DNA from: Isoetes taiwanensis
Taxonomy: Eukaryota; Streptophyta; Lycopodiopsida; Isoetales; Isoetaceae
DNA: 64,000 nucleotides
Reading direction: 5' to 3'
NCBI GenBank assembly: GCA_021234155.1
Contig: JAJEKV010000015.1
Coordinates: 4,222,902 to 4,286,901 of the forward strand
Shown: piece by piece, positions 216 through 32,970 of the stretch
Layout of the letters: each line of letters begins with the position of its first letter
How positions within the stretch are numbered: position 1 is the first letter of the stretch
Notes under the pieces: generated by a model
Database searches by the model: none
The model's input: only the letters and a program-made list of their open reading frames with translations
What the model was told of the DNA's origin: nothing
Translations under genes and position numbers: made by a program

Positions 216-2787
216 TCCTCCCTATTATAAGTCTTTTGGGTTTTTTGTTTCTCATTTATTTTCTTCCTTACTAATTAGGCGAGATTGAGGCGTGTCTTGG
301 TTTCAATATTCCAAAATCGTGGAAACCCTAAGTGATGTAGACATTAGACAAAACTTAAGCCTTGCGATTGATATGTGGCAGATCCGGTCTTGGGTATATA
401 TATACACATGGCATATCCACCATTAAGTGTAATGTACAAATTGACATGTGCCTTAATTCATTATTTGAGAATGTACGAATAATTATGGGTTTAAAATGTT
501 GAATTGACACGGCTTGGTATAGATTTATGATGGATTTGTATTGACATGTGCCTTATTTCATTTATGAGAATGATTTTAAATGATTATGCCTATTATACTA
601 ATAATATTAGATATTATATCCATATACATGTGGCTGAAAATACGAACACGTGGCGGAAGAAAGGCAATGACATATGTCGATCGTCTAGATGGACTTCCTT
701 CAACGTAAGTAGATATTGAATTTTTATGATATCGATTTTGAATGGTTATGCCTATAAAAGATATTATACATTATATGTGGCTTAGAATGCAAATAAATGG
801 CGTAAAAAGGGACTTCCACCCTATAAATAGAAGATGTTCCTAGCATTTTATCACATTGAAAGCAATTAAAGTATTAATGTGAGTGCTTCGCCCTTGCTTG
901 ATTCCTCGCATTCAAGGTACATATTTTGCCAATGTGTTATATCGTTGAAGCTTTAATATTAGCTATTTACTGCACTTGCTGAAAGAGAATAGGGGGTCGG
1001 AAAAGATAAATGTTCATGGCAGCCTTGGCCGCCACGAAAAATTTCTTGTATTATAAAGAAAAGGTAAGATAAACTTTTATCGTCGGCCGCTTCATAAGCT
1101 AGGATCAATCATCGAGTTTCATTAGTTTTAGAATTGAATTGAGTTTATCTGATTTTTATGGTCCATGAGAACAAGAGGTTTATGGGACTCAATACAAGAA
1201 AAAGCATACAGGAAGCCCCATTACTATACAAGATTAAAAAATCCCACCCCGTGGAGTTTCGAGGGGAAAACCTTGACAATAGCTCACTAATGATTCTGTA
1301 TATATTAACATGCTGAAGGTGGACATAGTTGGGCTCGTCGATCAAGAACCTCTAGGATATAAGATGCTAATGTCATTTTTGCAGGCGTTTGCAAAAGTAC
1401 ATGTAGTGCTGAGTAGGTATAATCAAAAAAATATTGCATGCTTGGATAGTCGCAAATGCAAGACAAAATTGAAGAATATGGCATCTACAATCGCTCCCAT
1501 CTGGCACATTGACATATCATGGTTTCGTGCAGCTCACAGACCCATTTGCATGTCTCAATTTGGAGACAGGGTGTGCACTAGTGCTGTCCTACACCTCTTC
1601 ATGTGCAAATGTACTAGCGTGTATTGTTGTGGGCCACAGATAACTGTGGGATCGATCTGGCTTTTGTAATGTGTTATCTTGACCAAGGCACCGACATCCC
1701 AAATCTTATGAAGAAGCATGTGTTGAGACAGTACTTCAATAGAGCGTGTTCTTTATTGCTATCGAATCTCGTATACATGCATGTTCCTGCACATTTCATC
1801 TAGAAAAGAAGCCTGTGTGTTTCGCCTTCCAACATGATTTAAGATGTTGTGGTTCCATGGCCATTGTGTAGGTACGGTTTGGATCTCAAGTGTGCCACAT
1901 GTTGACCACCTTCTAACAGTAGAGTATGTGTATTCCAGGTTAGCACCTTGAAGAGGAAGGAATTATGTCTCTTTTGAGGAAAGAATTGGATATGGACCGT
2001 GAATTTGAACTCCAAAAGCTCGAGGTCAAAAGGTTTTTAGATGCGTTCCAAGTCTTCACAAATGGCAAGTGATAGCATTGGAACTCATACTTCAATCCCA
2101 TATAAAAGAACCGGCTCGAACAACTAGAAACAAGTGTGCAGAATGGGTAAACCTTTGCTTTGTGGCAATTGCATTAAGATACAAAGGCATTTTAGACTCA
2201 TGAGAGAGACCTAATTGTGGCATCTTCCCCATAGCTCCTCCCTAGGAATAGTGTATAAAGCCCTTGCAAAATCCACAAGAAACCATAAAATCCAGTCATT
2301 AATTTTGGTTGTCCTTTAGCAAGGTCCGCAAAGTCAAAACATGGTTAACTGTAGAGTGTTTAAGGCTGCTTGGCCAAGCGTTAGAAGGATGAGCACATAA
2401 CTTATCATATTAATTAATTAGGTCATGGTCAACAGTAATTACCTAAGGCGTTGAGCCCAAGATGTTTAGGTGGTCAAAGCGGGTGATTCTTATGTAGCAA
2501 ATGTTTTCAGAGTTAGTTTTGGCCAACCCATGCCATATCATAAATACAAAAGGACCATAGAAGAGGGAAAATGATCAAACAAAGTTTTTGGGAGATCCTG
2601 TTATATTGTTGCCGATCATCGACAAAGCGGCTTGGATTCAATGCCAATGGCTATACATATGAGCTACTCTTAAGAAAAAGCAGTTGATTCTTGAAAGATG
2701 AAATGAAAATACTTTGGGAGGACAAGTTCCACATATTAAAGCTTGATGTGTCCAAATCTTAGGCCCTTCGTTTTTTGTATACATGTT
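216..2787. other. No recognisable gene; AT-rich
   Basis: I see no supported gene. Segments near 586-660 and 738-803 are diverged direct repeats (shared 'ttatgcctat', 'tatatgtggct', 'atggcg'), which could be promoter-like repeats of a decayed element. An open frame at 1310-1669 (119 aa) has no family signature and is probably fortuitous. Confidence 0.5.
821..830 (+). promoter_or_regulatory. TATA box-like promoter
   Basis: CTATAAATAG is a textbook plant TATA box, with a G-box-like CACGTG core about 170 bases upstream (near 647). No recognisable coding region follows, so it may be the promoter of a decayed LTR element. Confidence 0.35.
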
Positions 2788-4356: not shown

Positions 4357-5437
4357 CCAATTACATTGTACATATAGAAACACATGCCCCTCTCCGAAAA
4401 ATAAATTGATAAACAAATAAATAATTGATTCAAGTGCATTATTGTTCCCCTCCTCCCCATTGCCTCTCCTAGAACCTATCTAATGGGAATCGAAAGAGCG
4501 TACAAAAAAACATTGATATGCACAAAGTCCTTATTTGTGTAGATGCCCAGATAACCAAGATCCCACGACCGGATCGAAGAAGAGGCCAGTGAAGTAACAA
4601 AGAATAGAACATACAACTAATTGCTCCACATGACGGGGTGAACCTCATGACTGATCTGCACCACAGAGCCCTCAAAGCGCTCTAAGTTTGACCTGCACTC
4701 CTGACCCTCATAAAACATTTCAGCTAGTGGTAACATGATATTCATGGAGTCCTACTTGGCCTGCAACTGCTGAAGATAAGATGCAACTTCTTTCTTGTTA
4801 TTGTCTACCATGGTGGTAACAACCTCTAAGACACGAAGTGAGGTGGCTGGAGATGATCACCTTTGCATAGCGACACTAACTGTATTCCATGTTCACGAGA
4901 CCTAAGTCAACCCAAACTCTAAAATCTCGTAACATAAAGATTGTGACAAACAAAAATCACAAAAGCAACCTTCACTAATTATACACCTCCAACCGTAGGA
5001 CAAATAGCCCCTAACTCAATTTTTTCAAGACTATGGTCATACATTTGAATAATCATTGTTCACTTAACTTGTGCGGATGTTCTCCAAACTATCTATTGCA
5101 GCAAATCTTCCTATCGATTGCATAGTCTTTGGTCTATTGATGCAAATGCTTACTCAGTCCATATGAATATATTAGTTGTATTGGATGCTTGATGAGATAT
5201 GAAGAGCAAGTTAAATTGTTTTTCATTCTTTGTTTGCAATGTTTCTTTAGCAAATGTACCTTACATTACTGAAGGAACCACAGATATTGTAACATGGAAA
5301 AAATAAAATTGTATATATTGATCTTTGAGATCTTCTATTCAATTCCTCTTGTCGCACTTAATTTCCAAAATAGATACATGCTCTTTGTCATTATTACATG
5401 TTGGAATTCATTTCTTTTCCTTATCGTGGTAATAAGG
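4357..5437. other. No recognisable gene
   Basis: AT-rich sequence between two LINE copies. Open frames at 4469-4675 and 5294-5539 have no signature, apart from the last part of the second, which enters the LINE. Confidence 0.5.
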
Positions 5438-23006: not shown

Positions 23007-23849
23007 TCCATGCACAATAGTTTCCTCTTTTTCTTGAACTTTGGTGGTGAGGGGGTAGGGGATGTGGTGATGGGAGCTACAAGATTCAGTTAAAGTTGTG
23101 AAGTCTATATATTTTATATTATTTTGAAACTTTGGTATTGGAACATTTGTATGTACCAAGCAAATCATGAAAGCATTTAGGGAACGTTTTGAAAAAGCAT
23201 ATATGAACTTTGATTAGGAATACAATGAGAGCTAAGTACAACATTCTTGAATAAGTGACCCCAGCTTATGCAAAATTTAAAGGAGAACAAAATCAACACA
23301 CCTCCCTGAATTTGTGGCGAACAAATATAATTCAAACTATTGGAAAGCCAAGATCTTTGAAAGGCAAAGAGTAAACTTTAACCCAAATTAATTTAGATGG
23401 CCCCGGTTCATATTGGCTGTTTGCTCGGCTTCACTTAGAAAGATAGACAGAAACAGCCAATGGGAAACTACAGCCATGAGCCCAATGAACGTGTGTCATT
23501 CCACTAGCTGTATTGCCATGTACAATAGCTCAAACATTGCTTTAACAACACATTTCTATAGGCATTGGGCTTACTCAATTCAAGTGGTGAAGTGGCTTCA
23601 ATGTGAATAATCGGGTTGTGAAATGAAGCAAACAAGCAAAGCGAAATGAACAAACTGCCGAGAGAGGATACTTGGTTTTCAAGCAAAATACAAAATAATC
23701 CACTAGATACATCACTTTGAATGGTGTTTGCTACCATATACATGACGGCCTAGAAAAATCCACACGTGTTGTATGAAGAAATCTAGGTGGGTTATGGACC
23801 CCCGATACGAGAAGATTAGGAGGAAATAAAACTTTGATCACTAAGAAGC
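23007..23849. other. No recognisable gene
   Basis: AT-rich spacer. The open frames here overlap each other on both strands and have no signature. Confidence 0.5.
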
Positions 23850-24740
23850 CTCTCTATAGTGGGTAGAGTGACGGTAGCCAATGTTGTGCTTGGATCCCCA
23901 CATGTCTTCTGCTCCTCGGTCCTCGTGGGCCCTAAAACAGTCTACGAGAAGCTCCAGAGGATGATCAGGATGTTCATATGGAATGGTCCCTCTGAACTTG
24001 CATGGTCTGAGGTATGCAGAGACATGAGAGATGGTGGATTGGGCTGCAAGGAGCTCTTTTTTGCAAGCTTCGAGGTCAAAGCAAAAATAATCTGGGAGAT
24101 CTCTTATGGGGAGCAATCACTGCGCTTCACTTTGTTCGATCCTGGCTAGGCAAATGCACCCTTATGCAGGCCATCAGTTCCCATGGAGGAGGTAAGCTCC
24201 TTCTTTTACTCAGTCTCTATGCCACGTGGTGTATCTTCTGTTATGCGAGGTCTACTCAGTGCATGGCAAGAGGTTATAGAGGTTTTCCACCTAAAGCCAC
24301 CCTGGTGGAAGTGGGGGGCCTTAGCATCTTCTAGAACACAACAGTATGGGAAAAGCGTGGGCTACCCCTGGCTCTGGTCCACCCCCGTATATATTCGAGG
24401 TGGAGACAACAAGGGATCCGCCACTTAGCTGATGTGTGGTTGGATGGTCAATGGTTGTCTTGGTCTGAACTCCAAAATCGGCTCAAACAAGCTAGTGTGT
24501 TGGACAAGAGTATATTTAGATGCATTTTGGCTAATGTGCATGACTGGTCAAGGATTGTGCCTTGGTGAGCTCTGGGAGATTGAAGGGCAAGAGGGATACT
24601 CAGTAAGTGGGATTTACAGGCTAAAAACAAAGTTGCGTATTAAATGGGAACAAATCAAAAGCGAGAGCGAAAGGAATATTCCTCAAAGATTCCCCCTTTT
24701 TTTTTTTTTTTACAAAAACGGGGTAAAAAAAAAAAAAAAA
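23850..24740 (+). pseudogene. L1-type LINE ORF2 C-terminal fragment
   Basis: Reads 'MGRVTVANVVLGSPHVFCSS', 'LQRMIRMFIWNGPSELAWSE' and 'VCRDMRDGGLGCKELFFASF' (23,859 on). This is the well-known post-RT region of plant L1 ORF2 ('GR...LV...', 'FLW', 'W..VC.P...GGLG...'). Further on, in another frame, 'HLADVWLDGQWLSWSELQNR' continues the same domain. Frameshifts and stops break it. It ends at a poly(A) run (24,726-24,740), consistent with an L1 3' terminus. It is a different family from the pentanucleotide-tailed LINEs. Confidence 0.8.
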
Positions 24741-24999
24741 GATGCATGAAATTCTATTTTGACCCCCAAAAGTGACTAATTTTTTGTGCAACGAAAGAAT
24801 TGACTTTTTTAAAGTGTCATTTTTCTTAGCAAATAGAATGTTCTTGAAGTATATTTTACGAGAGAAACCCTAATTTCAGAGGATAAAATATTTCACAAAA
24901 AATTGAAGTTAGTCCGTAACTGAAACTGTAGTATTCTCAAAATTTGAAGATAGAATCTTCATATTCACATGCAAAATTCTGATCTTTTTCTAAGACTCA

Positions 25000-27640
25000 G
25001 TTATGTGCAAAGGTATGAGGAGTGATAAAGGAGGGATCCAGGACGTCATCATGTTCATTTATGTAGCATTGCCACCACCTTCTTCATCCTCTTCTTCGTA
25101 ATTACAAGCTTTTTTAAGCAAATTGATAGTCCTCTTGGCGAGGCGATTGTCGATTTCAATTTAAAATCATAGCACAATATAGTCCGTCATTAAGGATCAA
25201 CTCATCCCTATAACCCACCTTCTTGGACTTTCTCCCCTTTCCTTGGCTTCTCATTTCTAACTCATATCTACCTTCAAAAGCATTTTTAAAGGCGTGTTGC
25301 AAGCCAATGAATCTTGAGTTTAGTGACTAAGCCTTCCTCCTTGACGTGTGTCAAGCACTTTTGCTATCGAGAAGGTGGAAGCCTTTGTCATCCTCCTCGG
25401 TTGGAAGAGCAATTAGCATACCCTTGGTAATTTACGTAATATTACCTTGAGGCTCATTCAGCGTCTTGGTCAGGAGGTACATGACTCGATCCTCATCTTC
25501 TTCTACTTGCGGTGCTAATGTAGCATTGCTTGGACACCTTGGTCTTTGGGGTTGATGGAAGGTGTTAGGCCATCCAAATGGTTCTTGCATTTGTCTTAGA
25601 GCTATATTTTTTTCACAACAATTTTCTGTTTAGAAATAAATTACTCCACCACATCCGATCTTCTTCTAAGAAGTACTTAAAGCTCGAGGAAATTCCATTT
25701 TCAATGGCTTTTAAGGATGACTTCACGGGGTACTTTTATTACCTTGGACTCCTTAGGATTTTTTGAGAGGAAGTTGTTACGCACGTTCTATGAAGGAAGT
25801 GTATGCGGAATATATTTAAGGAAGCGTAATCCCTACGGTGGACTCGGTCCTTAGTTGTGGTATACTTCTTCCCTGTAGAAGAAACTCGGCCATCCTTCAA
25901 GTAGAACTTGATGTGATGTTGAAAGGTGAGATCATTCAACTTGTTCCGCGGCTTGTTCTGTCAATGCGAGCGTTGAGAGAAAACAAACTCTCTGAAATCA
26001 GCGATCTCCTTAAGAAGATCGATCCTTGGGGTGGGAGTGTAAGAATCTTCAATAATTCGAATTAGTGTAGGAAAGAGAAAGCCTTCTTCCTTCTAAAAGC
26101 GCCTGAGAAAATCTCTTGAACATTTGGTCAATTTGATCATGAGTGTGGCCTACAAGTAAGAAACCGAGCTTCACTTTTCTAAAGATCCCTAGCTCCACTA
26201 ACATAGCACGGTATGCAAAGAGTGTTTGATTCTTGTTCTCCCTTGTAGTGTTGTCAAGTTGCGGAGTAAAAGCTTGCGGTGGTAATTGCTCTTGCTCGCA
26301 TACGGGACCTTGTTAAGAATTGTAATTGTGAGGTTCGGGTCACCATGCAAGTTTGGATATGTCAAAAATACTTTGCACTTTAGAGTTCCTTTGAAGACCA
26401 TAGCTCCTACAAGGTGGACCTTAACAAAACATTCCTCACGGCACATCTTTAGGAATGTTCAAGAAATGTGGTAGAGTAGTTTTTTTTTTGGTCCATTCCA
26501 TCAATCACAACAGACATATATTGCAGTGGACATTCAAGAGCTTTTTTTCTGTGCTTGGCAAGCTTTCTTCTCTCTGCTGCTTGTTGTTCACGATGTCGGC
26601 AAGGTTACATTGCACAATATATCTGTAGAAGAAATCAGGTCAAAGCATTTTCTTTAAAACAAGTGAGAGATTGGAGAACGTGAGCTTACTTCTTTCGACC
26701 TCTGTCTTTGCAGTTTCTCGTTGACTCTTTAATTCTGCACACCTTGAGCAAACAGACATTCTATGTTTTCCGGGAATTTTCACAAGACCGAATTCACTTT
26801 TCCGATCACGGTGAAGTGTGAGTAAGAGATGTGCTGAGTGCAAGTCTCTTTGTACTCATTGAAAACATCTTTTTGGTGATGTTATCGGTTAAATGATACA
26901 TGTTCTTTGTTAGGTAGCTTCTCACATGTTTCTCTAAAATATTTCTCCATCCATGACATGGCAGTGACAAGGGCATGCATGGTTACAACTCTTCTTGGTC
27001 CACAATGATCATCGATTCTTTGGATTTTTGTCGATCTTTTATGTATTCTAGACATTCGGTGGACCCTAAGCGGTGGACAACCATAAAACATTTACGGCAA
27101 ACTTCTTCACGGTTAATGTAGTGCAAGAAGGTGTTTCTTGATACTGGTCTTACATGATAAGCTAAGTAGGCATTCAGTGCGCCAATGTCATGGGGCTGTA
27201 GTTGTCTCTAAGCGCGTAATTTAGCCCATTAAAATGTTAATGCAACCCAATGAGCAGCATTTAGTTCTCAAGAGTTTCCTCATTTTGTGTTCATCCATAA
27301 GATTTCTTCTTCTTCAGAGGAGCACGCCCTCAAACCAAAATCCACCTTGAATTTCTTGAAGATTGGGTGGAGAACATGTAATCTCTTTGTTCCTCATTGG
27401 GGTTTTCATCTTGATGAAACTTCTACTCTGGGGTGACTTCCTCTATCACGAGTGGTGTGTTTGTAGAGGAAAAGCGGACCCACGTGAAGTTATTCGGAAA
27501 AGGCGGTTAGTACGGTGTTAAATGATGGTGATGGCCCATAAGAGGTTGTGGCATCAATTTGTTCTTGTACCATCTTGAAAAGGAGTTCTTGCAAACATCT
27601 CCTTTAAGCGGACTAGAATTGCGCAAAGCCATGTGTCTAA
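25000..27640 (-). pseudogene. DUF7869-like transposase-type protein, broken
   Basis: Minus-strand reading, N to C: 'AYHVRPVSRNTFLHYINREE' followed by 'VCRKCFMVVHRLGS' (about 27,080-27,180); 'VVTMHALVTAMSWMEKYFRE' followed by 'TCEKLPNKE' (about 26,900-27,000); 'KIPGKHRMSVCSRCAELKSQ' with a CxxC (about 26,720-26,790); 'QLDNTTRENKN' (26,228-26,260); 'FRKVKLGFLLVGHTHDQIDQ' followed by 'MFKRFSQAL' (26,098-26,180); 'LTFQHHIKFYLKDG' (about 25,900); and an acidic tail near 25,050. From memory, this order (CxxC, then LDN...ENKN, then VGHTHxxID) marks a family of large plant and algal proteins annotated DUF7869 that behave like transposases. The Asp of 'LDN' and the His/Asp of 'GHTHDQID' are present here. 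At least four frameshifts or stops make it a pseudogene. It is divergently oriented to the methyltransferase gene that follows. Confidence 0.75.
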
Positions 27641-27699
27641 CCGTTGTGTGAAGAGGAGTGCATCTTTGGAGCATAGTCCTCATTTGTAGTGAAGTCCTG

Positions 27700-27895
27700 G
27701 TGAATACACCTCACTTTGAAGGCGAAGGTGTGATACGGAATTTTCGACTTGGCGTGAAGGCGAAAGTGTATTCAATTACTTTGGCTTACACCCTCGGTCG
27801 AAAGTGTACTCCTTTCGGAGGGGTAAAGCCAAAGTGTATTCCGAATACACCTACGCCTTCCATCAAAGTGTATCTCGAATACACCTTCGCCTTCT
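27700..27895. repeat. Palindromic AAAGTGTATTC motif cluster between divergent genes
   Basis: AAAGTGTATTC or close variants occur at 27,763, 27,801 and 27,831, with inverted partners GAATACACC at 27,843 and 27,868 and a looser one at 27,701. GTGTATTC-C-GAATACAC near 27,834-27,850 is a palindrome. The same motif recurs at 29,836 and three times at 30,209-30,321. Its position between two divergent reading frames suggests shared regulatory or transposase-binding sites. Confidence 0.6.
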
Positions 27896-29816
27896 AGGTT
27901 TGAAAGGTCTTTTCTTGCGCTATTTTTAGGCGTTTTTTAGGCTTTTTAGACTTGTTTAAGCCTATTTTTGTGTCAAGGTTGCACTCTTGTTTTTGCCTTT
28001 TTGACCTGTTTTTGTACTATTTTTGTCTTTTGTTTAAGACATTTTGTATTCTGGAATAGCTTTCTGCCACTGTTTTCACTAAAAAAGTCGTGTTTACACT
28101 TAAATGTGTACAGGCAAGAAAGCGGCAAGAAACATCAGAAGAAGCCCATCAAGATGTCCCAGAAGCCGCACCCACAGAGAAGGGTTGAAGACGATGCTGC
28201 GCCTGCGATTTACGAAAACCCTCAAACGCAGTGGTTCTTTACTAGGGGAACATCTGGAAAGTACAGTACCCTTACCTTCTTGCATGTTTTGTCAGTCTTT
28301 GGGAATAAAAGGTACGATGATCGAGAGAGTTTGTTTGCATGGGCACCATACAAAATACATTAGTGAAATAGCCGGGGAGTTAGGACAACGAGGCAGACTA
28401 TCCTTTGCGACGTCCCAAGGATTTATTCATGTTGATGAAGCCTACTTTAGAATGGTCAAAGTAAACCCGCCGGCACTTTACAAGTATGTGTCTCACTACA
28501 TCAACAAGAAACCGCTCAGTGTGATAATCAATGAGATTCGAAGCACAACAAGCGAAAACTTCGCTTACAGCCCATCAGGGAGCCCATCAGGGAGTCCTTC
28601 AGTGAGCCCAAGAACAAGAAGCAGATGTTCGCCGGTGCGCAAAAAAAAACAAAAGCAGGCCAAGAGCCACCATAGCCGCTAAGGAACCAAAGAAGCGGAA
28701 GGTAAAGCAGCTTGAAGTTGCTGAAATCGACGAGGAACAACCAAAAACGAAGAAGGGAAAGGGCAAGGCTCCTGGGGTGGCCATTAAAGAAAAGAAGGTG
28801 GATAAGACCTCAGAGAGGATGGAACAAATAAATCTTAACAAGTACGTTCAAGGAGTAATATACTTGCCAGTAACTTCCATGAGGTTGCCACCGAAGAATG
28901 AAGCTAGTGGCGCCCCGCCCGGGTTCGAAAAATCTATGCTGATCATTTAAAAATTTAAAGGACGAGGAATAAGGAGCAACCCCAATGCCCATGTTGCTCC
29001 AATTGTTGTTCTTGTTGAGCCGAGAACGCATGAACCCCAAGGACTCACTGACGGAGAAAATCTTGCGACACACTTACATGCACTCGTCCTTGGGGAAACC
29101 CGGTTTCAAAGCAAGGAGACGGTTGTACAAAGAAAAAAATAATCCAAGATATCTCTCGTGCTCTGCGATGTTTCTTCGTGGCACGACGGGGCGAAAAGCC
29201 AAAATCATTGCCAACACGCACAATCTTGAACGAATATAAGTTTGAAAATGAGCTTTGTCGACAAAATCAGGTTCATGCACAGGGGAATATATGATATTCA
29301 AAGAAAAATATGGAGATGATTTGAAGAAACCACAATACTCATTGGAACTAAGGGCGTGTCTTTGTGGAGTCTTTGCCTCAAATCTGACCGACGAGGCTAA
29401 CAAGCGGGGAGTCTCTAATACCACCGACAAGCGGTTCCGGCTAGCCAGCCGAGAGATGGCGAGTAAGTTGTTTTTGTGATACGGAATACCCACGCAGCCC
29501 TCCCAGCGATATCGATTTCTTCTCTCAGATTTGGGACCTCCAAAGCGAAATATTCACCATGTTCGGCGTGGTGATTTGAAAAACAAAGGCAAGGTCTCGA
29601 AAAGAAAAAAGGATCCGGCGTCCCCAAAAAGGAAATGACAATCACATGTGTGGCGAGAAATCACGGGGCTTCTGAGATATGGATATACTAGAAAAGGCTC
29701 TTGCAAAAGGTTGTCGATAAAGAATTTACTCTCGAAGAAATGTCCAAGGAGCTCCACAAGTAAGAATGCCACTTTGGGTTTTTGTTTGGTAGGGAGAAGT
29801 GTAGTTCGAAAAATAC

Positions 29817-30210
29817 TGGCTCACACACGAAAGCCAAAGTGTATTTGAAAACACGCCTGGCGTGAATTCGATTGATTTGAAAACACGCCTGGCGTGAATT
29901 GGTTTGATTTGAAAACACGCCTGGCGTGAATTCAATTTATGAAACCAGGTTGATTTGAAAACACGCCTGGCGTGAATTCAATTGATTTGAAAACACGCAT
30001 GGCGTGAATTGGTTTGATTTGAAAACACGCCTGGCGTGAATTCAATTTATGAAACCAGGCCGCGCGTGAATTCAATTGAATTGAAAGCACGACTGGCGTG
30101 AATATTAAAATGCTAACATCCTAATGCAGTTAGTTACCTTTTGTATAGAAATGTCTTCCCCATTTCATTCAAAGTTGCACTAATCTCAGCTGGCTTTCGT
30201 GTGTGAGCCA
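29817..30210. repeat. Tandem array with 13-bp palindrome, flanked by 20-bp inverted repeats
   Basis: CACGCCTGGCGTG (6-base arms around a T) recurs at 29,852, 29,885, 29,917, 29,962, 29,994 (one change), 30,026 and 30,087 (one change), spaced mostly 32-33 bases and organised into a higher-order unit of about 109 bases. The array is bracketed by TGGCTCACACACGAAAGCCA (29,817-29,836) and its exact reverse complement (30,191-30,210). It lies inside a likely intron of the methyltransferase gene. Confidence 0.85.
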
Positions 30211-30334
30211 AAGTGTATTCTGGAATACACTTTGTCTTTCGCGTGAGGGCCAAAGTGTATTCCAGAATACACTTTGGCTCAAAAAACTGTAAGCCAAAGT
30301 GTATTCTGGAACACACTTTGGCTTACAGTTTTTT
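30209..30334. repeat. Three consecutive hairpins sharing AAAGTGTATTC arms
   Basis: Near-perfect palindromes: 30,209-30,234 (12-base arms), 30,249-30,278 (14-base arms, GCCAAAGTGTATTC) and 30,281-30,334 (26-base arms with one mismatch, starting AAAAAACTGTAAGCC). These are seen directly in the sequence. Confidence 0.9.
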
Positions 30335-32219
30335 GAATAGTTCTTTCTTGTTGCTTTCCTTCTTAGTTTTCTTCCTTCTAACGTTTGTGTGGTATTACAG
30401 CCAGAAAAATGTCATCACATGTCAAACCTGCTTAATGGAGCAATTAAATGTTGGCAATTTGGGAAAGGTGCAAAAAAGAGCTTTATCTGTCGCAACCTCG
30501 GACAAAAGGATTGTCAGTATGCCTCAAATTTTTGAAATTTGGGTATGTTGATTTGTTTTTATATTGTTGTTTTATTGTTACTAAGGCGTTCTTTTTGCGA
30601 GCAAAAGAAAAACAAAGAACTTGGGAGGGCTTCATGCACTTGGTCGGGACGGTGCGCGAAAGAAAGGATATTTGTAGCGGACAAAGCGTGTTACGGATTA
30701 CGAGCCCGCCCGATTCTGAAAAGGTTTACAATGTTCGATCAAAATAACCTATTCTCTATTGTACCGCGGTGATTGCACCAAATTGCAGAATCAATAAAGC
30801 CCCAAGATTTTACCTTGGTAGTAGCTGACCTTCCATATGGATTCAAGCTCAAAGGCAGCCGCTTCGACGACCAGCCATTTAAAACTCTCGAGTTTAATGC
30901 TTTTCGTCGGACGGCATAAAGCGATTACCATGGCAAAACATTGGAGGTTGGTGGTATTTCACTCAAGCATGCAATCCGGCCTTGTGGAAGCCTGGTTTAA
31001 AAATCATTTTGGTTCCCCCTCATGGTGGCTATGAAAACATGGTTTGGTAAGCACTTATTCGGAATACATATGTCCTTATATTTGTTTTAAGTTCTTTTCC
31101 TTTTAGTAACACTGCGAGCAATGTTAGGAGTTTCTATTAGAATCACGTTTCCTTTGGTTTGTACTTAAATCCTCTTTTCTTTTTTGTTCTTAAGGTACAA
31201 GACAAATATAAATTACCATGGCGGAGGCCCTAGTAGACATTGAGTAAAAGTCGAATATCTCCACGCCGCTTATTGGAGTTTTGATGGGAAGCGTACAATG
31301 GAACACTTCAACACGCAGTGAACGTGTCGAACTTTTCGAGCGTGTTGGAGTTTCAGCCGGTTTTTTAAGGCTTGCAGGACCCTAGTGCACAAGGAAGAAT
31401 AGTGAATCACCATCGAAGCCCGCGAAGTTGATTAACCATCTTACGGACATGTTCTCACGTCCGGGAGATTGGGTGCTCGGCGCATTTTCCCGCTCGGTAC
31501 AACTATTGCTTGTGCACTTAAGAAGGGCCGTGAATGTGTAGCCATTGATATTGATAAGGAGGTCGGTTTCATTAAAATGAGACTTCTTTGCTTTACCAAC
31601 TCTACCGGGCGAGAATCAAGAGTTGGGGCAAAGTCTAATTCTGATTTTGCTAAGATGACATCATCGAAATCTGACCTCCCTTTACAAGCTCCGTAGATGA
31701 CGAAGCTACTTTTGCAGAGTTGAAAGAAGTAGCTCTTTGCGCCATACAGGAATCAACTAACGACGCGAGAAGCCTAAGTCACCTTAAAAAGCGGTGAGAA
31801 GATACAAACCCACCAAGCGAGAGAAGCGAAGAAAAATGAAGAAGACTACAATTTAGATCTCGGCCGGACCTTTTCTTTGTGGTTAATTATCGATATTTAT
31901 TATTGATTGCCATTACTGATGTAACAAAAAAACAGTAAAGAAATTATTATTGTTATTTTTACTAAATTTGTGTTTTTTTATACATCCACCTACAAATAAT
32001 TTTGTACTCATGTCTCAATTTTGGTATTTTCACGTGCTTCACTACCAAAAGCGAAAGTCGTGTCCAAAAATACCCCAAAACTAGGCCAAAAAAAAAAACC
32101 GATACTCCACGAAACTTTAAACCTCTCTTAAAAAGCCCACTTTTTTAGAATGACATGTTTTTTCTAAAGGAATCTTTCAAATGGGAGTGCTGCAACACTC
32201 CCGTTTAATTTGCAACCTT

Positions 32220-32970
32220 GTTTAAAAAGGAACCTCTCTCCCTTCAAGGTTCTGGCCAGCCTGAATGTCACAGATGAGGTGTTCCTGCAATTCTTAGTGG
32301 GTTCGGCAATCTTTGGTGCTCCAAGAAGATACAATTGTTACGATGGTTAGCTCTCCAAGATGCAATCGGCACCATGTCTCGGTTGAGAAGGAGGAAAATA
32401 GTGGAATCGGATCTACGCCCACTAGGATGTGGGCAATGTGAATAAGTGGAGCACCTGTTCTTCTGTCCTATGGTGGTACACTTTTGGCACTAGGCTTCAC
32501 CCATACTTCACTTGATCCACGATGAGTGGAAGTGGCCACATATCTTATTGGTTTCGGCTAGATCGGACGAGCTTGGTCATCAACATTGCTCTATGGGCGG
32601 ATCCGAAAAAATGTGTATGATGTTGCAATTGGAAAGTTGATTCTCTCTACCACTTTCGAATCACGCAAGTATGCGTCAATATGGAGGTTGCAATGATAGG
32701 GTTGGGGCACCATAGGAAGTATGGCAGAAATTATGATAAGGAGCTAGATAAGATTGGTAGTATACAAGGCTTCAACATGTTTTTCCGTTGCTCTTGGAGC
32801 ACGGAGGAAGTAGCCATTGGCGACTTAAACTTTGGCGGTTAACCCCTAACTCCCTTGGGAGTAGGCAGGTTCCCCTTGTGCTCATGGATGATATCTGAAC
32901 ATAAGGTTCATCTACGTGTTTTTACTTTCTTATTAATATAATATACATACTTACCTCCAAAAAAAAAAAG
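32220..32970 (+). pseudogene. L1-type LINE 3' end with zinc-binding region
   Basis: Reads 'DAIGTMSRLRRRKIVESDLR' then, after a shift, 'CGQCE' and 'VEHLFFCPMVVHFWH' (about 32,360-32,490). This is the RT-associated zinc-finger region (zf-RVT: CxxC...EHLFF-C...W) at the end of plant L1 ORF2. It ends with an AT-rich 3' UTR and poly(A) at 32,957-32,969. Stops and frameshifts make it dead. Confidence 0.7.

Follow-up and report, generated by a model that had tools for sequence, protein, structure and literature searches.

A high-copy DNA transposon in Isoetes taiwanensis pairs a DUF7869 gene with a divergent gene for a ParB-like domain joined to a predicted DNA methyltransferase

A 64,000-nucleotide stretch of Isoetes taiwanensis DNA (assembly GCA_021234155.1, contig JAJEKV010000015.1, forward-strand positions 4,222,902 to 4,286,901; hereafter the window, in whose coordinates features are given) contains two genes, both broken across frames, that start back to back: one with the domain DUF7869 on the minus strand and one for a DNA methyltransferase on the plus strand. 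The original prediction, made from the letters of the window, took them for a candidate mobile element with its own modification enzyme, extending from 25000 to 31860. This locus raises the question of whether the two genes indeed form one element and, if so, what a transposon would do with such an enzyme. The divergent broken pair itself is confirmed by a PF25273 match, by the motifs, and by exons placed with tblastn.

Comparison with other copies in the genome searched for relatives (G000, 1.66 Gb) sets the limits of the element. This genome is that of a photosynthetic organism, judging by its 66 matches to the chlorophyll a/b-binding family. The window holds a whole, decayed transposon copy of 7,597 bp at 24626-32222, which replaces the narrower limits predicted and is delimited by sharp homology ends against other copies, terminal inverted repeats (TIRs), a target site duplication (TSD), and an empty site. 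The TIRs are about 25 bp long, AACAAGRTTGCRWATTAAACGGGAG, lie at the common ends, and are flanked by 4-bp direct repeats. In the window they are AACAAAGTTGCGTATTAAATGGGAA on the plus strand of the transposase side (24626-24650) and AACAAGGTTGCAAATTAAACGGGAG on the minus strand of the methyltransferase side (32198-32222), with identical TSDs TAAA at 24622-24625 and 32223-32226. Among the 14 sequences scanned for TSDs (L001-L013 and the window), both ends are visible in 7, and the 4-bp flanks match in all 7 (ACAT, ATAT, GACC, CATT, ATAT, AAAC, and TAAA); the remaining 7 show one end or none within the piece examined. Flanks also match in 8 of 8 further loci selected by facing TIR pairs (CAAT, CCAC, GACA, CTCT, TAGC, TGAG, ATAC, and AAAG). 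The alignment of copies proposed with the original prediction as a way to find shared ends and target duplications thus yields both, with matching duplications in 15 of the 15 copies that have both ends visible.

When the window flanks fused across a single TAAA are used as a query, 66 candidates and 40 scored matches are obtained, of which 37 cross the junction uninterrupted with 80-92% identity and thus represent the empty site in a long interspersed nuclear element (LINE)-like repeat. The 3 matches that do not cross comprise both halves of the window itself plus a further left half at C1051. This host repeat flanks the element at 23838-24621 and 32227-32500, its LINE nature being judged from frames by eye. 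The C1051 locus (L026, C1051:2483000-2492999) carries the same insertion, which is 93.5-93.7% identical to the window through the element and the flank sequence compared, apart from about 130 unaligned bases. Since both insertion and flank are shared, it appears that either the insertion is older than a duplication or the window and L026 are two diverged haplotypes. It is near certain that the two broken genes of the window represent one mobile-element insertion.

A TIR pattern with degenerate positions allowed and no mismatch has 717 + 690 matches in the genome, and its reversed control has 0. Among the first 100 of these 1,407 places, 27 facing pairs are less than 20 kb apart, including 13 at 8.2-8.7 kb and 7 at 2.8-4.3 kb. 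Both genes are present and divergent in all 4 long copies fetched out of the 13, which were chosen for their absence from the top-150 gene lists, and a coding match is found in none of the 4 short copies fetched out of the 7. The stretches retained in the short copies measure about 255 bp at the left end and at least 62 bp at the right. The prediction that both genes belong to one element is therefore borne out by TIRs, TSDs, the empty site, and the divergent pairs in TIR-picked copies.

As for classification, the TIRs, the fixed TSD length of 4 bp, and the empty target site are those of a TIR (class II) DNA transposon. Sola and other named superfamilies also make 4-bp duplications. According to the part of PMC9587614 considered, a TTAA target duplication defines Kolobok and also piggyBac; assignment to either is rejected, since none of the 15 TSDs is TTAA. 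The element is a high-copy DNA transposon with two divergent multi-exon genes, accompanied by short gene-less relatives that share its ends. No third gene or cognate endonuclease is recognised in the elements inspected, whose remaining frames had no search aimed at one.

The DUF7869 gene lies on the minus strand and consists of a C-terminal exon (25000-26588, placed by the PF25273 match and tblastn with the L013 exon) and an N-terminal exon (26643-27711, placed by tblastn with the L013 exon), both broken. DUF7869 (PF25273) matches at 26049-26312 with E 2.8e-25, and the motifs LDN..RENKN and VGHTHDQID fall within this region. In relatives the conserved acids are those of IDG.DQ, LDN..RENKN, and GHTHDQID; DUF7869 is also the only Pfam family above its cut-off in the transposase exons, and a profile search of solved structures with it returns no relative. 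Since the ends are common to gene-less copies and the element has no other recognised gene, DUF7869 is very probably the transposase, with catalysis suggested by its sequence, and its protein would move both full and gene-less copies. In L014 (1643-3442, minus strand) the protein has a conserved C-terminal region at residues ~415-500, KGMLVAV..FWLAKVLDV..LKVHW, which by eye only resembles a small beta-barrel chromatin reader. The term DUF7869 is absent from the open-licence literature searched.

The second gene is located by tblastn with less decayed relatives, and all its exons are broken and on the plus strand: an N-terminal domain exon at 28112-28508 (L010 exon as query), a ParB/sulfiredoxin-fold exon at 28654-29473 (L013 exon as query; fold from the relative L002), an exon with motif IV, DLPYG, at 30588-31019 (also from the alignment of relatives), and an exon with motif I at 31193-31861 (FSGSG and PF01555 in relatives). 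In relatives the order is N-terminal domain, ParB-like exon, ADLPYG/ADIPYG exon, and FSGSGTT exon. The ParB-like domain between the N-terminus and the methyltransferase is new relative to the original prediction. Its region matches NCBIfam ParB with E 1.8e-4 and 21 bits, which is under the curated cut-off, and a profile search of solved structures with the ParB exon sequence gives nothing useful. The first two exons of L002 were modelled as a protein of 464 aa, with an overall predicted local distance difference test score (pLDDT) of 52.5 and mostly 70-90 for residues 253-391. VIA-align ranks ParB-CDP (6sdk) first for this model (Z 10.8, root-mean-square deviation 2.4, 97 residues), and 21 of its first 28 rows are ParB-type or sulfiredoxin chains; according to the model, the domain has the ParB-N/Srx fold. 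Foldseek also reports SAWADEE, SH3, and PH-domain rows for the whole L002 model; these are weak, with E about 0.6 or more, and were not used.

The last exon matches PF01555 with E 5.3e-18 in L002 and 7.6e-18 in L012. The nearest solved chains are the adenine enzymes MboIIA (1.1e-11), CcrM (7e-9), and RsrI (2.9e-8), with an N4-cytosine enzyme at just 2.3e-3, and N6-adenine appears a likelier product than N4-cytosine. The order of motif IV followed by motif I marks the beta class. Here the motif IV exon precedes the motif I exon, and D.PYG is invariant in the 12 aligned rows, with L or I as the second residue, whereas the catalytic tetrapeptide typical of the class is DPPY or SPPY. At sequence or fold level, the second protein is thus a ParB/sulfiredoxin-fold domain joined to a beta-class DNA amino-methyltransferase, and it is probably an active enzyme. 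Among 150 scored PF01555 exon hits, which are the best-scoring ones and hence biased, 124 are stop-free in the matched stretch. The best phage-family match of this exon is phrog_67 (E 1.9e-20). Direct tblastn against phages yields 86 records, of which the 15 listed rows cover 35-54% of the exon with 28-43% identity; the phage search with the L014 ParB exon gives no match. Plant and algal homologues include Marchantia DN4MT1, on which the open-licence literature search found no paper. Searches outside G000 return no relatives from viral contigs (alignment A2 and single proteins) or from genome contigs (alignment A5). Close to the methyltransferase end in L002 (1702-3648, minus strand) there is a Ty3-type retroelement polymerase frame, read from the letters by eye.

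By homology limits, the two genes start at 27711 (minus strand) and 28112 (plus strand), with 0.4 kb between them. Among the 150 best PF01555 hits and the 150 best PF25273 hits in G000, 24 pairs lie within 15 kb versus 0.41 expected; 22 of the 24 are divergent, and 17 are at 4.7-5.6 kb. The pairing of the two genes is not due to chance. A rough first look gives 9,908 DUF7869 candidates and 1,444 PF01555 candidates, which suggests that many DUF7869 copies may lack the enzyme. For a rank sample of six DUF7869 loci (ranks 20, 45, 70, 95, 120, and 145, all within the 150 best of about 9,908 candidates), the ParB-methyltransferase is found in the ~10 kb fetched at 4 (L027, L028, L029, and L031). 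L014-L017 (ranks 1, 22, 5, and 12, respectively) were chosen for having no top-150 methyltransferase hit nearby and are not a fair sample; L014 and L015 carry the ParB-methyltransferase. These two represent a second family, with DUF7869 about 50% identical to that of the first family and the same divergent layout. L017 has a 527-aa open reading frame (403-1983, plus strand) with an LDFFSGG motif, on the strand of its DUF7869 gene and at the place expected for the ParB-methyltransferase. Its methyltransferase-like motif I is recognised by eye only, Pfam gives an unrelated hit (E 0.13) and phrog_3008 matches with E 0.023, so it was not used; possibly it is another methyltransferase type that was swapped in.

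Selection on both genes was estimated from nonsynonymous (dN) and synonymous (dS) divergence in 7 of the 12 rows in each of alignments A2, A4, and A5 and in 6 of the 15 rows in A3, with frameshifted, short, and near-duplicate rows excluded beforehand. Many pairs have saturated dS, among them all 15 for the ParB exon. For the catalytic exon, comparisons between first-family lineages give dN of 0.010-0.062 and dS from 0.19 to saturation, with dN/dS of 0.01-0.05 wherever dS is finite, and the motif IV exon has dN/dS of 0.03-0.20 in four finite pairs. Within the same family, the ParB exon has dN of 0.057-0.120, with dS saturated in every pair. As for the DUF7869 core, dN/dS is 0.05-0.08 for most finite pairs, and 0.20 and 0.68 for two close pairs. 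According to these values, the methyltransferase is clearly under strong purifying selection. The proposal of a mobile element with its own modification enzyme is supported at the sequence level.

The methyltransferase does not always travel with the same DUF7869 gene. Identity between L010 and L013 is 96.9% for the DUF7869 gene and 79.9% for the methyltransferase; between L010 and L020 the values are 89.8% and 87.2%, respectively. In similarity windows along L010 the relationship switches within the methyltransferase gene, at about position 4,700 of the element, and trees of 13 copies conflict between element parts with high support. In approximately unbiased (AU) tests, whose clades were named after the identity tables had been viewed and whose p-values are therefore exploratory, the right part of the element rejects the grouping L006+L007+L010+L013 (p-AU 4e-66), the left (2e-5) and middle (6e-5) parts reject L010+L020+window+L009, and the left part does not reject L006+L007+L010+L013 without the window (0.059). 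L015, L016, and L017 of the second family match each other at 89-98% on the DUF7869 side and diverge near the L015 palindrome array. From these sequence relationships it is concluded that methyltransferase modules are reassorted between elements. Because all 4 full-length TIR-picked copies carry both genes, the change in the first family looks like an exchange of methyltransferase versions. The original prediction held that copy boundaries between the two genes would speak against a single element; such boundaries are found in part, as relationships change between or inside the genes.

The original prediction noted the same palindrome between the genes and within the second gene, and it is present in both places: GTGTATTCnnGAATACAC occurs at 30213 and 30255, and its form at 27834 has one central base instead of two. 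The intergenic array of the family palindrome, degraded and of the GTGTATTC..GAATACAC type, occupies 27719-27894, and a second array of it lies in an intron at 30202-30330. The same intron region has a tandem array at 29845-30103 with a period of mostly 32 and the palindrome CACGCCTGGCGTG, which, among 32 loci and the window, is confined to the window copy and its duplicate L026. The first family has GTGTATTCCGGAATACAC and close variants, extending to at least 24 bp in many copies, spaced about 41-44 bp, and grouped into one intergenic cluster and another inside the methyltransferase intron. As an 18-mer, GTGTATTCCGGAATACAC has 2,585 occurrences in G000, compared with 0 for the control. The second family (L014-L017, L027, and L031) has (CG)GTATAAATTTATAC(CG) or GGTATRAATTYATACC, with up to 18 copies of the core per fetched locus; in this family, too, an array of perfect palindromes lies between the genes. 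Both family palindromes occur together in 0 loci among the 32 and the window, which fits a putative family-specific binding site. Arrays are kept in 3 of the 4 short copies, and the fourth, L025, has a single 16-bp palindrome. Full-length copies have their conserved palindromes mostly in the central part of the element, away from its tips, which lends no support to the suggestion that the element marks its own ends. By its ParB fold, the methyltransferase would be a natural candidate binder, and GTGTATTCCGGAATACAC and CGGTATAAATTTATACCG are candidate binding-site DNAs for the ParB-like part or for the DUF7869 N-terminal part.

Taken together, these features suggest that the ParB-type methyltransferase of the transposon is guided to the element's own DNA via the palindromes and that its mark aids spread, a reading about as likely to be right as wrong. 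The ParB-like part would load at the palindromes, as ParB does at parS, and the methyltransferase would thereby mark the element's DNA. The mark could aid spread by keeping promoters or ends open in silenced chromatin, or else by limiting transposition to freshly replicated DNA. Taken separately, guidance by palindromes is plausible though somewhat doubtful, and a benefit through escape from silencing or through timing of transposition deserves the same caution. A full self-labelling system is rather unlikely: here a ParB-type clamp would load at centromere-like arrays in the element and its gene-less relatives, spread, and write N6-methyladenine (6mA) or N4-methylcytosine (4mC), alien to the host 5-methylcytosine machinery, with methyltransferase modules exchanged as in an arms race with host silencing.

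Several observations weigh against guided marking by a ParB-type methyltransferase. Exact palindromes of either family are absent in L002, L018, L025, L030, and L032, although near forms are present in L002, L018, and L025, and the transposase is a rival candidate to the ParB-like protein for binding the palindromes. Foldseek alone gives no match for the ParB model at E 0.001 or better, the best being a sulfiredoxin (E 3.2e-3). Motif IV reads D[LI]PYG instead of the usual DPPY that the original prediction named, while its other motif, FxGxG, stands as FSGSG in relatives. A DDE/D (RNase H-like) fold of DUF7869 is suggested by motifs alone, and the structure predicted for its exon is unusable, with a pLDDT of 37.9 that is too poor for a fold search. 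In comparisons with L014 and L015, dN is 0.33-0.57 for the methyltransferase parts (0.38-0.43 for the ParB exon) and 0.24-0.27 for the DUF7869 core; the claim that constraint on the methyltransferase at least equals that on the transposase is rejected, since these deep comparisons disagree with it. Finally, the enzyme is not recognised in the ~10 kb fetched at 2 of the 6 rank-picked DUF7869 loci (L030 and L032), nor at 2 of the 4 chosen ones (L016 and L017). Copies of one gene without the other, which the original prediction regarded as evidence against a joint element, are thus found in part, and the enzyme may not be strictly required. Nesting may explain its absence at L030 and L032, because a second DUF7869 copy matches on the side expected to hold the methyltransferase.

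The strongest alternative is that the DUF7869 transposase binds the palindromes and that the methyltransferase has its substrates elsewhere, e.g., at host silencing targets. In En/Spm-type elements, subterminal repeats are bound by the transposase. Here gene-less copies retain palindromes, and L010, L007, and L013 show the same relationships across the DUF7869 N-terminal part, the intergenic array, and the methyltransferase N-terminal domain. The methyltransferase intron, however, contains arrays as well, and palindrome clusters are, by analogy only, natural sites for a ParB-fold domain to bind, which leaves this alternative a real contender that is probably wrong. A repressive mark by which the methyltransferase would keep down the copy number of its own element, or silence competing ones, is an unlikely explanation. 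In the part of PMC8885841 considered, the rotifer enzyme N4CMT places 4mC on transposons and is linked to silencing, and the diversity and reassortment of the methyltransferase modules are in line with such a role; successful copies ought to lose a self-limiting enzyme, however, and dN/dS between lineages is very low. It is very improbable that the methyltransferase plays no part in mobility, as a passenger or a decayed host gene: the broken window copy and the two rank-picked loci without the enzyme are what this would predict, but purifying selection acts across lineages with high or saturated dS, the divergent layout recurs in the second family, and most of the (biased) best-scoring exon hits are stop-free. 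That two neighbouring elements, one per gene, lie side by side by chance might explain why relationships shift between and inside the genes, but it is refuted for the TIR family, where a single TIR pair and a single duplication enclose both genes in 7 + 4 copies, and can be dismissed.

Regarding known systems, parS sites are clusters of short perfect palindromes, a trait shared with the arrays of the element. According to the model, its second protein also shares the ParB/Srx fold with ParB-parS systems, from which it differs in that the ParB-like domain is joined to a methyltransferase and carried by a transposon, with palindrome binding and CTP use putative. Phage DNA methyltransferases (PHROG 67 and other families) give the best phage matches of the methyltransferase exon, but with only 28-43% direct identity in the rows listed, and the L014 ParB exon has no phage match. 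The closest precedents are fungal TET/JBP transposons, giant-virus Mariner elements, and rotifer N4CMT. As described in the part of PMC12730594 considered, fungal DNA transposons encode a TET/JBP dioxygenase beside the transposase, and this modification gene likewise passes between transposon lineages, but the enzyme oxidises 5-methylcytosine; the Isoetes element would instead add a methyl group to an amino position, and has a ParB-like domain and palindrome arrays. The giant-virus Mariner elements, which reside in viruses of eukaryotes, are likewise DNA transposons that carry a methyltransferase gene, but they have a Mariner transposase, other methyltransferase types, and an endonuclease partner, and no ParB domain is described in the portion of PMC3627910 considered. 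Bdelloid N4CMT is, like the enzyme here, a prokaryotic-type N6_N4_Mtase in a eukaryotic nucleus; in the same portion of PMC8885841, however, it is a horizontally acquired host enzyme with a chromodomain that makes 4mC, and is not described as transposon-borne.

Among the papers listed by searches of the open-licence literature, no high-copy transposon of a photosynthetic organism was found that combines a bacterial-type methyltransferase, a partition-type domain, and palindromic arrays. The findings also suggest that DUF7869, an unannotated domain, functions as a transposase. Should the enzyme be active, amino-methylation in such a nucleus would be traceable to a definite, mobile source, against which 6mA and 4mC reports could be checked.

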